From the NCBI GenBank assembly GCA_037439705.1, contig JBBIVP010000043.1, positions 1 to 12,670 of the forward strand: DNA of 12,670 nucleotides. The letters are read 5' to 3'. The notes beneath the pieces are model-generated. The model did not search any database and was not told the DNA's origin. It was given only the letters and a program-made list of their open reading frames with translations. This document shows, one piece after another, positions 943-8,094 of this stretch. Every line of letters begins with the position of its first letter. Position 1 is the first letter of the stretch. A program made the translations under genes and the position numbers. The DNA comes from JBBIVP01 sp037439705 [NCBI: bacterium] (GTDB taxonomy: Bacteria; JBBIVP01).

Positions 943-2055
943 ATGTATTTCCTAACAGTAGTGCTCAAAAATCTCTCAAGGAGAAAATTGAGAAACATCC
1001 TCACGATTGTTGGAGTTGGAATTGGTATAGGGGCGGTTGTATCCCTTGTTTCAATTACCGATGGATTTATGAAGAGTTTCACAGAAATGCTGAAATCAAG
1101 GGGAACAGACATTGCTGTAACAAAAGCAAAAAATCCGGATGTCCTTCTGAACTCAATTGATGAATCTATTGGAGAGGAACTAAAAAAGATAGAAGGCATT
1201 GAGTCCATTTCAAGGGTTCTTGTTGACCTTGTGAGCATAGAGGACCTTCCATCCGTTATGATCTTTGGATTTGACCCGGATGAGTTCATATTTGAACACT
1301 TCAAAATAATTGAGGGAAGAAAATTATCAAGGGATGAGGAAGATATGGTAATGATCGGGAAAATTCTCGCAAAGAATATAAATTTAAAAGTTGGAGATAA
1401 AGTGGAGATCGAAAGGGAAATTTTTAGAGTGGTGGGAATTTTTGAGAGCGGAAATGTGGTTGAAAATGGAGGAATAGTGATGAATCTAAAAACCCTTCAG
1501 AGACTCATGAACAGGGAAGGGTATGTAACTGTTTTCAATATAAAACTGAAAGAGCTGGAGTTTACTGATTCTGTTATTAATCAAATAAAAACAAAGTTTC
1601 CAGGGCTTGAAGCCATGACATCAGAGGAGATTACCAGAAACAATGAGGGTTATAAAATGGCTAAGGCGCTGGCATGGGCGACTTCATTTATTGCCCTTTT
1701 CGTTGGCGCCCTCGGAACAATGAATACTGTTTTCATGTCAGTTTTTGAGAGGACAAAGGAATTCGGGCTCCTCAGAGCAATCGGCTGGAGGAGAAGAAGA
1801 ATAATGCTTATGGTTCTTGGAGAAAGCATCATCCTTGGACTCATAGGTGGTGCCCTTGGAATGGCAATAGGTGTTATTGGAGTCCATCTCATAAACCAGA
1901 TTCCCATAGTGAAAGGTGGTATCGTGGGTGATTTTTCAGCTCCGTTGTTTGCTAAGGCAACTGCCATTGCTATTGGAATGGGAATCTTCGGTGGATTTAT
2001 ACCATCTTCATGGGCTTCATCCATTTCTCCTGCAGAAGCATTGAGATATGAATGA
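943..2055 (+). CDS. ABC transporter permease, FtsX/MacB/LolC-E type
   Basis: A 370-residue inner-membrane permease of the FtsX/MacB class, which moves lipids or lipoproteins by mechanotransmission rather than through a channel. It has the expected layout: one N-terminal membrane segment (about 17-38), a large extracytoplasmic MacB-PCD-like domain (about 40-235), and three C-terminal membrane segments (about 240-264, 287-315 and 338-358). Between the second and third membrane segments is the cytoplasmic signature FERTKEFGLLRAIGW (268-282), typical of this family. The C-terminus SPAEALRYE matches the usual PxEALRxE ending. Start 943 has a strong ribosome site (GGGAGGT) spanning the stop of the upstream gene. 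It overlaps the ATPase gene by 8 bases. No MacA-like adaptor is present here. Confidence 0.9.
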   Translation: MYFLTVVLKNLSRRKLRNILTIVGVGIGIGAVVSLVSITDGFMKSFTEMLKSRGTDIAVTKAKNPDVLLNSIDESIGEELKKIEGIESISRVLVDLVSIEDLPSVMIFGFDPDEFIFEHFKIIEGRKLSRDEEDMVMIGKILAKNINLKVGDKVEIEREIFRVVGIFESGNVVENGGIVMNLKTLQRLMNREGYVTVFNIKLKELEFTDSVINQIKTKFPGLEAMTSEEITRNNEGYKMAKALAWATSFIALFVGALGTMNTVFMSVFERTKEFGLLRAIGWRRRRIMLMVLGESIILGLIGGALGMAIGVIGVHLINQIPIVKGGIVGDFSAPLFAKATAIAIGMGIFGGFIPSSWASSISPAEALRYE

Positions 2056-2713
2056 AATCATCCTTAAAGCAGAAAACCTTGTAAAGGAATACGAAGAAGG
2101 AAGGGTAAAGGCTTTGAGGGGAGTTAACCTTGAAGTAAAAAGGGGAGAATTTGTGGCAATAATGGGACCGAGTGGATGCGGAAAATCTACCCTGTTAAAC
2201 ATGCTCGGTGCTCTTGATAGACCGACATCAGGAGATGTGATTATTGACGGCGAAAGACTTTCGCAGGCAAAATCACTTGATGAAATAAGACTTAAAAAAA
2301 TTGGTTTCATATTTCAGGCTTTTCATCTCATTCCAACCCTTACAGCCCTTGAGAACCTTCAGATTCCAATGATTGAAGCCAGAATTCCGAGAAAGGAAAG
2401 GCTCAAAATGGCAACGGAGCTTTTAAAAATTGTAGGACTTGAAGAAAGGATGAGCCAGATACCCCCAAAGCTTTCTGGGGGAGAGAGACAGAGGGTTGCC
2501 ATAGCAAGAAGCCTTGCAAACTCTCCATCCATTCTTCTTGCGGACGAACCCACAGGAAATCTTGACTCAAAAAGTTCAGAGCAAATTATAACCCTTTTGA
2601 GGAAGATAAATAAAACAAGAGGAATGACAATAGTTCTGGTTACCCACGACCCGAATGTAGCATCCTGCGCAGACAGGATAGTGAAAATGAAAGATGGAAT
2701 TCTTTATACATGA
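2048..2713 (+). CDS. ABC transporter ATP-binding protein, LolD/MacB type
   Basis: A 221-residue nucleotide-binding subunit, the usual length for the LolD/MacB/FtsE-like class. The motifs are complete and in order: Walker A GPSGCGKST (40-48), Q-loop glutamine 90, signature LSGGERQ (142-148), Walker B ILLADE with D166 and E167, D-loop, and H-loop histidine 200. It would energise the permease encoded just upstream. Its start overlaps the permease stop by 8 bases and lacks a strong ribosome site, which suggests translational coupling. Its own stop overlaps the next start in an ATGA. LolD and MacB-like ATPases cannot be told apart reliably by sequence alone, so I give no gene symbol. Confidence 0.93.
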   Translation: MNEIILKAENLVKEYEEGRVKALRGVNLEVKRGEFVAIMGPSGCGKSTLLNMLGALDRPTSGDVIIDGERLSQAKSLDEIRLKKIGFIFQAFHLIPTLTALENLQIPMIEARIPRKERLKMATELLKIVGLEERMSQIPPKLSGGERQRVAIARSLANSPSILLADEPTGNLDSKSSEQIITLLRKINKTRGMTIVLVTHDPNVASCADRIVKMKDGILYT

Positions 2714-3273
2714 GAAAAAGAGTTTCTTTAATTGCAATAGGAAACGAACTCCTTTCAGGAAAAATTAGAGATGAAAACCTTTTTTATGCAGCAAATAAAC
2801 TCACTCCCTTGGGTTTAAATGTTGTTGAAGAAAGAATAATAGGGGATGATGAGGAAAGCATAATTTCTGCATTAAAAGATGCTTCAAAGGTTGCTGATTT
2901 CGTTATAGTAAGCGGAGGGCTGGGACCAACCGAGGATGACAGGACAAGAAAATCTGTTTCAAAATTTCTCAAAAAACCCCTTATTTTGAGGAAGGATATT
3001 TTGAAAGCTCTTTCAGAAAGATTTGAAAAAAGGGGATTGAAAATGCCACTCTCCAACCGTAATCAGGCTCTATTTCCAAAAGGCGCAAAGATCATACCCA
3101 ATCCAGTGGGAACTGCTCCGGGATTCTCTGTGGGATACAAAAAATCACAGATTTTCTTCCTGCCGGGAGTGCCTTCTGAATTCAAGGCAATGCTTGAAGA
3201 TGTGCTCAAAAGGATAGGGAAGGGAAAAAATTTGAAGACCGTAAGGTTGAGGGTATTTGGAATTCCGGAATAG
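2710..3273 (+). CDS. cinA: CinA-family protein, N-terminal part, cut by in-frame TAG
   Basis: 187 residues carrying the molybdopterin-binding-like (MoCF) domain of CinA, known in homologues as an ADP-ribose pyrophosphatase. The hallmarks are GNELLSGKIRDEN near residue 12, SGGLGPTEDD near 69-78, and FFLPGVPSEFKAML toward the end. The frame stops at TAG (3271-3273), just after the GIPE stretch that opens the CinA KH-like linker. The same frame then continues without a break to 4635, with the expected CinA linker and PncC domain. In homologues these form a single chain of about 400-430 residues. So this is either the 5' part of a gene with a nonsense mutation, a sequencing error, or a gene read through at UAG. 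The ATGA overlap with the ABC ATPase gene puts it in the same operon. Confidence 0.85.
   Translation: MRKRVSLIAIGNELLSGKIRDENLFYAANKLTPLGLNVVEERIIGDDEESIISALKDASKVADFVIVSGGLGPTEDDRTRKSVSKFLKKPLILRKDILKALSERFEKRGLKMPLSNRNQALFPKGAKIIPNPVGTAPGFSVGYKKSQIFFLPGVPSEFKAMLEDVLKRIGKGKNLKTVRLRVFGIPE
3271..3273 (+). other. In-frame amber codon inside cinA
   Basis: The codons on both sides read G-I-P-E then E-I-A-D-R-L in the same frame, which matches the continuous CinA linker of homologues. One base change from a Lys, Glu, Gln, Ser or Tyr codon would create this TAG. No in-frame ATG follows until 3355, and no good ribosome site supports re-initiation, so the downstream part depends on readthrough unless the stop is an error. 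Confidence 0.9.
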
Positions 3274-3318
3274 GAAATTGCGGACAGGCTCAGGGATTTC
3301 TCTAAAGTATTCAAAGGA

Positions 3319-4635
3319 TTGAACATAGCCTTTCTTCCATCATTTCCAGAAAATATGATTGACTTGAGCGTTCTAAGAAAGGATGAAAAAGAGGCAGAAA
3401 GGCTCATAAATGAAGCGAAGGAATGGATAAAAGAGAAACTGGGAAATTTTCTTTATTCTGAGGGAGAAATCCTTCCCGAAGTGGTCGGGAAAATGTTAAG
3501 GGAGATGAACTGGAAAATAGCCACCGCTGAATCCTGCACGGGCGGACTTGTCTCTTCACTGATAACAGATGTTCCAGGAAGTTCCGATTATTTTAAAGGA
3601 GGATTTGTAACATATACATACCCTGCAAAATCTCAGTATCTCGGTCTGGATTTAAATATGCTTGAAAAAGATGGGGCTGTAAACGAAAGAACAGCAATTG
3701 AGATGGCTCGTGGTGCTCTAAGGGCTTTAGAAGCGGATATAGCGGTATCCACCACCGGCATCCTGGGACCGGGAAAGGGAGGAGAAAAAGAAGATGTTGG
3801 CACTCTCTTTGTTGGAATTGCGTGGAAGAAAGGAGAATTTTCAAAAAAATTGTTCTTCCCTCTTGGAGACAGAAGGGCAAAAAAAATCCTACTCGCATAT
3901 TTTGCTCTTGATTCAGTGAGAAGGTTTCTTGAAAGAGAAAAAAGGATGGGAAATTACAGGGAGGTTATAGAAAAGGCAACGAGCGATGGAATTGCCTTTA
4001 TAAAGAAGTGTAAAAACGGAAAATGCCCGATTTTTTTCTTCCTCACTGCCAATCCTCCCACAAGGGCTCACAGGACTATTCTTATGGAAGCAATAAAAGA
4101 ATTCTCTCCCGACGAGGTTGTTGTAATGCTTGACCTTTATCATGCTGATAAATCGGTTCAGGAAGCAAGCCTTGAAGAAAGGATAGAGATGATGAGACTC
4201 ACTTTTGAAGGAATTGAAAACTTATCCTTAGGAATTTCTTCAAAGGGACTTTTCGTTGAAAAACTTGACCTCATAAAAAAGCTCTGGGAATCTGAAAAAA
4301 TTAGATTTCTTGTAGGCATGGACACAATGTTGAGAATTCTATCCCCATCTTTTTATGAAGACCCTGATTCTGCATGGAAAAAACTCTTTGAAAACTCAGA
4401 ATTCATCGTTGCTGAAAGAATGGATATGGACGAGGAGGAAATCAAAGAGGTTTTGAAAGAAAGAAACCTTGAAGGATATCTCAATAAAATTAAATTCTTG
4501 AAAACCGATCCCTCTATAAGAAAAATTTCATCTACCGAAGTTAGGGAAAGAATAAAAAGAAATCAACCAGTTTCAGATATCCTTCCAGAAATGGTTGAGG
4601 AATTCATAAGGGAAAGAGGGCTATACAGGGAATAA
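3319..4635 (+). CDS. CinA C-terminal (PncC, NMN amidohydrolase) domain fused to a NadD-like adenylyltransferase
   Basis: The continuation of the cinA frame after the TAG. Numbered from the TTG at 3319, residues about 52-205 form the CinA C-terminal domain, which in PncC deamidates NMN to nicotinate mononucleotide. It has the AESCTGG serine motif (70-76), VPGSSDYFKGGFVTYTYPAK (85-104) and TTGILGPGKGG (145-155). Residues about 236-434 are a NadD/NMNAT-like Rossmann nucleotidyltransferase, with NPPTRAH (245-251, in place of the usual HxGH region), GMDTML (333-338) and ISSTEVRERI (403-412). NadD adenylates nicotinate mononucleotide, the product of PncC, so the fusion joins consecutive steps. The TTG at 3319 abuts AAAGGA, too close to serve as its ribosome site. 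An ATG at 3355 is an alternative start, but neither is convincing. Most likely the true start is 2710. Confidence 0.85.
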   Translation: MNIAFLPSFPENMIDLSVLRKDEKEAERLINEAKEWIKEKLGNFLYSEGEILPEVVGKMLREMNWKIATAESCTGGLVSSLITDVPGSSDYFKGGFVTYTYPAKSQYLGLDLNMLEKDGAVNERTAIEMARGALRALEADIAVSTTGILGPGKGGEKEDVGTLFVGIAWKKGEFSKKLFFPLGDRRAKKILLAYFALDSVRRFLEREKRMGNYREVIEKATSDGIAFIKKCKNGKCPIFFFLTANPPTRAHRTILMEAIKEFSPDEVVVMLDLYHADKSVQEASLEERIEMMRLTFEGIENLSLGISSKGLFVEKLDLIKKLWESEKIRFLVGMDTMLRILSPSFYEDPDSAWKKLFENSEFIVAERMDMDEEEIKEVLKERNLEGYLNKIKFLKTDPSIRKISSTEVRERIKRNQPVSDILPEMVEEFIRERGLYRE

Positions 4636-4701
4636 TTTATGGGATTAAAAAGAGGCATTTTCAGATTCCATAATTTTCCATTTGAACCCATTTATCCGCA
4701 T

Positions 4702-4730
4702 TTGAAGTCTTTTCAAAAAACCGCTAAAAT
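4702..4730 (+). promoter_or_regulatory. Promoter of yggS-proC-yggT, probably leaderless
   Basis: TTGAAG (4702-4707) and TAAAAT (4725-4730) stand exactly 17 bases apart, and each matches the consensus at five of six positions. Seven bases after the -10 comes the ATG at 4738, where transcription would be expected to start. No Shine-Dalgarno sequence precedes that ATG, so the message would be leaderless. This also supports 4738 over the upstream in-frame ATG at 4639. Confidence 0.6.
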
Positions 4731-4737
4731 TTTTAAA

Positions 4738-5430
4738 ATGGATTTGAAAAGAAGATACGAAGAATTTATGGAAAGGGTGAGAAGAAGAGCTGAGAGCGCT
4801 GGGAGGAATCCATCTGAAATAACAGTTGTTGCTGTTTCAAAAACCTTTCCTCCTCAAGCAATTCTTGAACTTTATTCTTATGGACACAGGGATTTTGGAG
4901 AAAATTACATTCAGGAAGCAAAAAGGAAAATTGAAGAAATAGGTTCATCAGAAATAAGATGGCACATGGTTGGTTCTCTTCAGAAGAACAAGGTTAAGTT
5001 CATGCCATCCCTCTTTCAGTGGTTTCATGCCCTTGACTCCATGGAATTACTGGCTCTTCTCTCTGAAAAATTTGAAAGTAATGGAAAGATGCTAAACCTG
5101 TTGATTCAAGTAGATTTAACAGGAAAGGAAGGAAGAAGCGGGGTGAATGAAGATGATGTTTTTGAACTGGCGAAAGCCTGTGTTTCAAAAAAGGGAATTT
5201 ATCTAAAAGGTCTTATGACACTTCCACCCCCTCCATCAAAACCTAAAGATTCAAGGCAATTTTTCAGAAGGCTCAGGGAATTGAGGGATGAATATGTCAG
5301 ATCAGGTATTCCCGCTGAATGTATGAAGGAACTCTCAATGGGGATGAGTGATGATTTTGAGGTTGCTATTGAAGAAGGAGCAACAATTCTTAGAATAGGA
5401 AGAGCAATATTTGGAGAAAGGTATGGCTGA
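4738..5430 (+). CDS. yggS: YggS/PROSC family PLP homeostasis protein
   Basis: A 230-residue single-domain PLP-binding protein of the alanine-racemase-like TIM-barrel fold, known to buffer pyridoxal phosphate and affect amino-acid metabolism. The PLP lysine is K35 in VAVSKTFP. Other family blocks are DFGENYIQEA (52-61), WHMVGSLQKNK (75-85), and SMGMSDDFEVAIEEGATILRIG (200-221), which holds the phosphate-binding residues. The open frame extends up to an ATG at 4639. That would add 33 atypical residues and would place the probable promoter inside the gene, so I use 4738, which gives the usual family length. It overlaps proC by 8 bases; yggS-proC adjacency is a common bacterial arrangement. Confidence 0.92.
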   Translation: MDLKRRYEEFMERVRRRAESAGRNPSEITVVAVSKTFPPQAILELYSYGHRDFGENYIQEAKRKIEEIGSSEIRWHMVGSLQKNKVKFMPSLFQWFHALDSMELLALLSEKFESNGKMLNLLIQVDLTGKEGRSGVNEDDVFELAKACVSKKGIYLKGLMTLPPPPSKPKDSRQFFRRLRELRDEYVRSGIPAECMKELSMGMSDDFEVAIEEGATILRIGRAIFGERYG

Positions 5431-7761: not shown

Positions 7762-8094
7762 TTATTCGGCGAGTTTTCTGTAAAAACAGGTTCTATTCCC
7801 TGTATGGCAGGCAGGTCCTTTCTGTTCAACTAAATAGATGAGAGCATCTCCATCACAATCATAAAGAATTTCTTTGACGGCCTGAGTATTTCCAGATGTT
7901 TCTCCTTTCATCCACAATTTCTTTCTTGACCTGCTGTAATAATGAGCATATCCGGTCTCAATGGTCTTCAAAATGGCTTCTTCATTTGCATAGGCAACCA
8001 TTAACACTTCAAGACTTGAGACTTCCTGAACAATCACAGGAATGAGCCCATTATCGTCAAACTTGAGGTCCTTTATTTCTGCAACTTTTTTCAT
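7762..8094 (-). CDS. hisI: Phosphoribosyl-AMP cyclohydrolase
   Basis: A 110-residue, HisI-only protein that hydrolyses phosphoribosyl-AMP to ProFAR precursor, the third step of histidine synthesis. The catalytic blocks are intact: [12 protein letters not shown] (60-71), DCDGDALIY (79-87) with the metal-binding aspartates and C80, then [14 protein letters not shown] (93-106) with zinc cysteines C96 and C103. No HisE (pyrophosphohydrolase) domain is attached, and no other his gene is in the window, so it stands apart from any his operon seen here. AGGA lies 7 bases before the ATG. It is divergent from rho; I see no confident promoter on its own strand. The convergent zinc-ribbon gene ends about 100 bases beyond its stop. 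Confidence 0.95.

Follow-up and report, generated by a model that had tools for sequence, protein, structure and literature searches.

A cinA gene carrying an additional NMNAT-fold domain and an in-frame stop codon, and a rare but recurring pairing of PncC with related adenylyltransferases

We analyzed a 12,670-nt stretch of bacterial DNA (contig JBBIVP010000043.1 of assembly GCA_037439705.1, JBBIVP01 sp037439705; hereafter the window, meaning this whole stretch) in which the forward-strand frame from 2710 to 4635 encodes COG1058/MoCF, KH and PncC domains, together a full CinA, followed by a C-terminal domain of the NadD/NMNAT fold (Table 1). PncC makes nicotinate mononucleotide (NaMN) and NadD uses it, and the two are usually separate proteins. 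Pfam and NCBIfam matches confirm the succession of CinA N-terminal, PncC and NadD/NMNAT-like domains proposed in the original prediction, which was made from the sequence alone, and both adenylyltransferase motifs that it named, NPPTRAH and ISSTEVR, are present. Its single reading frame holds only in part: in the deposited sequence a TAG codon divides the frame into 187 codons before it and 453 after it, the open reading frames (ORFs) being 2710–3273 (187 aa) and 3319–4635 (438 aa, TTG start), and the intact chain that had been described is not encoded there; the prediction mentions a second part of the protein and names no stop. Read through the TAG, however, the region is a single frame of 641 codons, and the CinA model NF001813 is matched at positions 4–190 before the TAG and 193–413 after it, so that the two sides abut.

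Table 1. Features of the interrupted cinA–NMNAT gene and its immediate neighbors (positions in the window)
Feature	Position	Strand	Basis or remark
ATP-binding cassette (ABC) transporter ATPase, upstream gene	2048-2713	+	named from sequence reading
COG1058/MoCF domain (ADP-ribose pyrophosphatase type), 187 codons	2710-3270	+	PF00994 1.8e-35; Pfam core 2728-3213
In-frame TAG	3271-3273	+	directly after GIPE, where the conserved GIGES loop of CinA has Ser
CinA KH domain	3274-3456	+	PF18146 1.2e-6, model positions 13-72
PncC/nicotinamide mononucleotide (NMN) deamidase domain	3472-3927	+	PF02464 6.6e-46
NadD/NMNAT-fold adenylyltransferase domain	3961-4632 (core about 4018-4632)	+	Pfam, NCBIfam, model
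NPPTRAH, T/HxxH ATP-binding motif	4051-4071	+	sequence, alignment
GMDTMLRILSPSFY, motif in common with related NMNATs	4315-4356	+	sequence comparison
ISSTEVR, SxxxxR motif	4525-4545	+	sequence, alignment
YggS/pyridoxal phosphate-binding type gene (Ala_racemase_N), downstream	4639-5430	+	domain match

In comparison with known CinA proteins (Thermus thermophilus 4ct8/4uux; Shewanella COG1058/PncC), the window gene agrees in its three domains, their order and the active-site residues, among them Ser, Lys, Tyr, Thr and Arg of PncC, and it differs in the extra C-terminal NMNAT domain and in the TAG within the KH loop, which deprives it of a single continuous reading frame. The COG1058 part matches T. 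thermophilus CinA (TtCinA) at 4e-27 (phmmer) and, as read by eye from that alignment, retains counterparts of Glu-12, Asp-20, Asp-45, Asp-76 and Glu-156, residues named in the available portion of PMC4246079; the same portion describes Glu-187 of the TtCinA GIGES loop as extending into the ADP-ribose site. The first 12 positions of the KH model are unmatched after the TAG and would fall before it. The PncC domain scores 126.1 bits against TIGR00199 (cut-off 68.9), carries AESCTGG at 3526–3546 and a catalytic-type Lys codon at 3628–3630, and retains counterparts of AtCinA S31, Y58, K63 and T105 (alignment to 2a9s) as well as of TtCinA R377 (alignment to 4uux; residue information from the same portion of PMC4246079), which was taken as AtCinA R145. 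In AtCinA, the substitutions S31A, Y58A, K63A and R145A leave activity undetectable and T105A lowers it, according to the accessible part of PMC5384747.

By its fold and its T/HxxH and SxxxxR motifs, the C-terminal domain belongs to the NadD/NMNAT superfamily. Profile searches uphold its status as a nucleotidyltransferase, with matches to CTP_transf_like (PF01467, 1.6e-9) and to TIGR00482 (NadD/NMNAT; E 5.5e-22 and 78.7 bits for the 453-aa chain, and 81.4 bits when only 3931–4632 is scored), the scores lying below the equivalog cut-off of 112.45 bits that marks canonical NadD. Model PRK01153, which we take to be of the NadM type, gave 11.8–14.3 bits against a cut-off of 127 (E 0.02–0.13), which places the domain outside NadM. 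The original prediction had regarded TRAH in the active-site region as a departure that might alter specificity or activity; this concern falls because TxAH predominates in an alignment of 89 NMNAT domains including the window (83 distinct), with T in 88/89, A in 85/89 and H in all 89, and T/HXXH and SXXXXR are presented as general NMNAT motifs in the portion of PMC13191266 available to us. Nine positions identical in the 88 other domains are retained by the window (P32, H37, K64, R74, G119, D121, Y132, R153 and R195), as is T34, found in 87 of them.

Structure prediction of the C-terminal region agrees with these assignments. An AlphaFold2 model of 3961–4632 has a mean predicted local distance difference test (pLDDT) score of 94, its top Foldseek matches among solved structures are NadD/NMNAT proteins (E about 1e-11), and VIA-align places it on such structures with Z of 18–22, the highest being 4ymi_B (Z 22.1, root-mean-square deviation (rmsd) 2.6, 193 residues); for human NMNAT, 1nup_A, Z is 20.8 (rmsd 2.7, 200 residues). 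At the sequence level, a profile of 30 relatives also picks up PDB chains of NadD and NMNAT (best 4.1e-15), and a structure search against viral proteins returned weaker NMNAT/cytidyltransferase matches together with unrelated ones. In a model of the 453-aa chain built with 16 sequences (mean pLDDT 85), a 39-residue helix at 200–238 is predicted to run from PncC toward the NMNAT domain; prediction of the KH part is poor.

Relatives were sought in genome contigs with a nucleotide pattern encoding GxDTxxRIxxPx[FY]Y, which returned at least 119 stretches; because the pattern was derived in part from the window itself, this survey is not an unbiased census. An in-house profile found an NMNAT-like domain in 119/119 of the matches listed, which divide by profile score into 33 of group A (window-like, at least 138 bits) and 86 of group B (70 bits or less). 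Among these listed matches, frames closed at both ends span 240–300 codons in 21 of 26 group A members and 349–460 codons in 62 of 71 group B members, and three matches from viral contigs are group B-like. The NMNAT part as a single-protein query in the genome contig scan gave 46 pattern matches and no relative, the KH–PncC–NMNAT and Rho queries found nothing in the viral contig scans, and PHROGs gave no match for the window, L083, L085 or L131. The window's Rho reached at most 65% in a set of 25 genomes and, among the matches listed for 198 genomes of the phylum of G019, at most 69%. Genome surveys with the NMNAT query (E ≤ 1e-8, at which ordinary NadD may account for some of the weaker matches) gave matches in 11/198 genomes of the phylum of G019, 53/251 of that of G009, 22/64 of that of G025, 12/247 of that of G534 (10 of them shared with the G019-phylum survey), 6/95 of that of G006 and 4/43 of that of G535, in 5/55 genomes of the class of G160, and in the single genome of one further survey.

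The partnership of PncC with such an NMNAT recurs and is rare. When the window's PncC was run with phmmer against every ORF of at least 80 aa in loci L086–L286 (201 loci from both groups, duplicates included, with flanks of about 1.5 kb or less in those drawn from the genome surveys), PncC turned up within the NMNAT gene or next to it in seven distinct genomes. In locus L105 (2676–4022, plus strand, Anaerolineales metagenome-assembled genome (MAG) SuakinDeep_MAG45_1) both domains share a single frame, as in the window, with a related NMNAT fused to PncC; unlike the window, this protein yielded no COG1058 or KH domain, has Gln at the catalytic Lys (present by eye in the other 16 of 17 PncC relatives) and AESSTGG instead of AESCTGG, and its NMNAT is placed elsewhere in the tree. 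In the class of G160, loci L211 and L270–L273 have the NMNAT gene directly downstream of a full cinA (frames of 424–455 codons), in the +1 frame and with its ATG 10–40 nt ahead of where the cinA stop ends, and this overlap is found in 5/5 NMNAT-bearing genomes of the 55 surveyed; Pfam confirmed the domains for L211, L270 and L272. These operon pairs resemble the window in having a full cinA with the NMNAT directly behind it, and differ from it in being two genes in different frames, both of whose proteins fall in clades apart from those of the window. Locus L182 has pncC at 1486–2082 and the NMNAT gene at 2125–3105, 42 nt apart, while in L234 PncC lies on the strand opposite to the NMNAT and in G006 about 2.3 kb separates CinA from NMNAT, the two being on opposite strands. 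The search for the architecture described in the original prediction thus returned no identical fusion, although it did return the pairing itself, as the L105 fusion and as adjacent genes.

In a fuller NMNAT tree of 43 rows, with the root drawn at the midpoint only, the window groups with L210, L212 and L142 (99/98), ten NadD proteins form one clade without it (100/100), and the operon proteins adjoin NadD (100/98), with L105 elsewhere. Group A is not a single clade, since NadD branches from within it, and in a PncC tree the operon proteins again form a clade without the window (99/98). An earlier tree had placed L211 beside the window (with L212, L142 and L210; 99/99, long branches), a placement that was lost once NadD and four more operon members were added; with L211 outside the window's group, we do not claim that the operon pair and the fusion in the window have a common ancestor. 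PncC and NMNAT have thus likely been joined several separate times, which the trees suggest and, their branches being long, do not demonstrate.

Group B proteins show a different and apparently degenerate form of the association. Pfam CinA is weak in three of eight (8e-5, 0.0024 and 0.0047, all below cut-off) and absent in five, but hhalign of eight N-termini against four PncC sequences gives 90% probability (E 1.5e-6, 93 columns), in an alignment that begins after the AESCTGG region. The AESCTGG and Lys motifs are lost in all 11 group B sequences read, eight of them aligned; the window has both and does not belong to this group. Group B proteins look like old fusions whose deamidase has lost its site. 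The loci include L131, L173, L176 and L193 and the viral L083–L085, in each of which a nucleotidyltransferase is joined to a degenerate PncC-like domain, and their hosts are MAGs labeled Planctomycetota, Gammaproteobacteria and Chloroflexota, as well as viral contigs. The plant protein AT2G01220 probably also combines a PncC-like domain with a nucleotidyltransferase; we found no paper on it.

Co-occurrence was assessed in 27 genomes picked from those with such an NMNAT. A separate NadD above the TIGR00482 cut-off is present in 26 of them, including G009, the genome of the L105 fusion; the exception, G024, may merely be incomplete. A CinA domain is found in only 20, so this type of NMNAT does not seem to need PncC and, with NadD nearly always at hand, looks like an accessory enzyme able to work without it. 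The NadD label of the original prediction therefore captures the fold and is too specific: the window domain has the fold, T/HxxH and SxxxxR in common with NadD (TIGR00482), whereas it scores below the cut-off, lies outside the NadD clade, is fused, and has relatives whose genomes carry a NadD of their own. By these sequence comparisons it is not a canonical NadD and belongs to a loose set in which TxAH prevails.

We consider it somewhat probable that a full-length cinA gene gained an in-frame, C-terminal accessory adenylyltransferase of the NadD/NMNAT fold, and that an intact version recycles breakdown products of nicotinamide adenine dinucleotide (NAD). In such a protein the COG1058 domain would convert ADP-ribose to AMP and ribose 5-phosphate, the PncC domain would deamidate NMN to NaMN, and the NMNAT domain would adenylate a mononucleotide, most likely NaMN to nicotinate adenine dinucleotide (NaAD), acting alongside the housekeeping NadD and not in its stead. 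Channeling of NaMN between the fused domains, as the original prediction envisaged, is a possibility. The fuller proposal, a trifunctional NAD-recycling chain that passes NMN to NaMN to NaAD and is one of several independent PncC–NMNAT joinings, is tentative and falls well short of an even chance. Several observations weigh against the preferred reading. The frame 2710–4635 is not open in the deposited sequence; the loci and genomes surveyed yielded no close relative in which all three parts are fused in this way; and the sole PncC–NMNAT fusion found, L105, lacks COG1058 and the catalytic Lys. PncC and such NMNATs are mostly apart, most of the 201 loci having no PncC nearby, and seven of the 27 assemblies (G019 and six Poribacteria, whose completeness is not stated) show no CinA domain. 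The window NMNAT itself deviates at five positions that are near-invariant in the 88 others (S29T, F30A, D128S, Y131F and L139W), with Ala at position 30 replacing the Phe that precedes NP in 87 of them.

How the TAG is interpreted bears directly on this reading. None of the 3,145 codons in the window's 13 other genes is an in-frame TAG, and for this reason we consider a changed genetic code unlikely and read the codon as a single nonsense change or a sequencing or assembly error, with an open and normally coded continuation downstream: GC content at third codon positions is 0.33–0.35 in the COG1058, KH–PncC and NMNAT segments and 0.35 in the other window genes, with which the codon use of the three segments correlates at 0.84–0.90. 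That the TAG is instead decoded as an amino acid, by a suppressor or as pyrrolysine, would leave 2710–4635 open throughout and make the 641-codon frame one protein. Only one of the 13 neighboring genes, yggT, ends in TAG, and a TGA two codons further on means that it is no proof of TAG as a stop, so TAG has not been shown to be needed for termination here; the same absence of in-frame TAG from the other genes nevertheless makes readthrough highly improbable. A serious possibility, though still well below an even chance, is that the TAG is real and the gene broken or split, either as a decaying fusion or as two products, in which case a COG1058 fragment would be made at best and a KH–PncC–NMNAT piece would be made only upon translation restart. 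The codon is, after all, in the sequence, in-frame starts follow it (among them 3319 (TTG), 3355 (ATG) and 3493 (ATG)), and the altered near-invariant positions of the NMNAT domain would suit decay. The cut, however, falls off a domain border, separating the catalytic Glu from the remainder of KH, the 453 codons downstream are open with normal codon use, and no convincing ribosome-binding site, judged by eye, precedes any of the three starts.

What the C-terminal domain does in the chain is the other point on which explanations diverge. It may be specific for NMN like yeast Pof1, a protein not known to be fused to PncC, so that PncC and NMNAT would be competing exits for NMN and the fusion would set the split between them; we regard this as a serious rival, though one well below an even chance. 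The available part of PMC13191266 reports that Pof1 accepts NMN only and has T/HXXH and SXXXXR as the window domain does, a likeness of motifs and not of compared sequences, and both the seven genomes that have such an NMNAT and no CinA domain and the 26 in which NadD could serve NaMN would fit an NMN-specific enzyme. The nearest solved folds, however, include both bacterial NadD and the dual-specific human NMNAT, whose Z scores differ by no more than about 2 units, and a sequential path would account at least equally well for the repeated pairing, in the operon proteins and L182, with a PncC in which the catalytic Ser and Lys motifs are retained. One domain might alternatively be enzymatically dead and the fusion regulatory, as may hold for group B, with its PncC-related N-termini stripped of AESCTGG and Lys motifs, and for L105, where Gln replaces the Lys whose substitution abolishes activity in AtCinA (K63A; PMC5384747, in part). 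For the window this is improbable, given that its PncC residues are retained, as are the NMNAT positions that are conserved throughout. More improbable again is a replacement of the housekeeping NadD by the fused domain in the window organism, considering the NadD above cut-off in nearly all of the relatives' genomes sampled, that of L105 included. An accessory adenylyltransferase gained by cinA remains the explanation that we prefer.

A PncC–NMNAT fusion is undescribed in the titles and abstract openings of the CinA/PncC literature searched, a scope that mostly leaves out subscription papers. In the accessible part of PMC3680494, COG1058 is named only as a stand-alone protein, fused to PncC or fused to flavin adenine dinucleotide (FAD) synthase, and the COG1058–PncC and NadM–Nudix fusions stand as known precedents. 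NadM–Nudix, like the window gene, joins an ADP-ribose pyrophosphatase to a mononucleotide adenylyltransferase (PMC3680494, same part), whereas in the window the pyrophosphatase is of the COG1058 type, PncC lies in between, and PRK01153 is matched only at the marginal E values given above. We also noted that L142 (5900–7900, minus strand, a Planctomycetota MAG) holds a single frame with NMNAT, Nudix and IF-2B-like domains that is reminiscent of NadM–Nudix; its NMNAT lies within the window's clade on a long branch. The recurring pairing of PncC with an NMNAT is a more durable result than the stop-interrupted fusion of the window. If it holds, the pair would be a functional module that gives an uncharacterized set of NMNATs a job, and the recurrent link of PncC to an adenylyltransferase other than NadD would point to a second, salvage-dedicated enzyme in several uncultured phyla. 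The overlapping gene pairs and L105 offer testable proteins, in which NMN may be channeled or else split between two exits.

Among the genes flanking the fusion, the TGA of the ABC transporter ATPase (2711–2713) overlaps the cinA ATG (2710–2712), and the first ATG of the YggS-type gene lies 3 bases past the cinA–NMNAT stop. The NMNAT locus of L164 (a Latescibacterota MAG) includes genes like those at 212–940 and 943–2055 of the window (24–26% identity), hinting at a common gene neighborhood. In L154 (2513–4873, plus strand, MAG bin29), an NMNAT is followed in a 788-codon frame, possibly not one protein, by Fer4_20 and pyridine nucleotide-disulphide oxidoreductase domains. Further along the window, a short HisI-like gene (phosphoribosyl-AMP cyclohydrolase) at 7762–8094 is the lone minus-strand gene between an FmdB-like gene and rho, all of them named by sequence reading.

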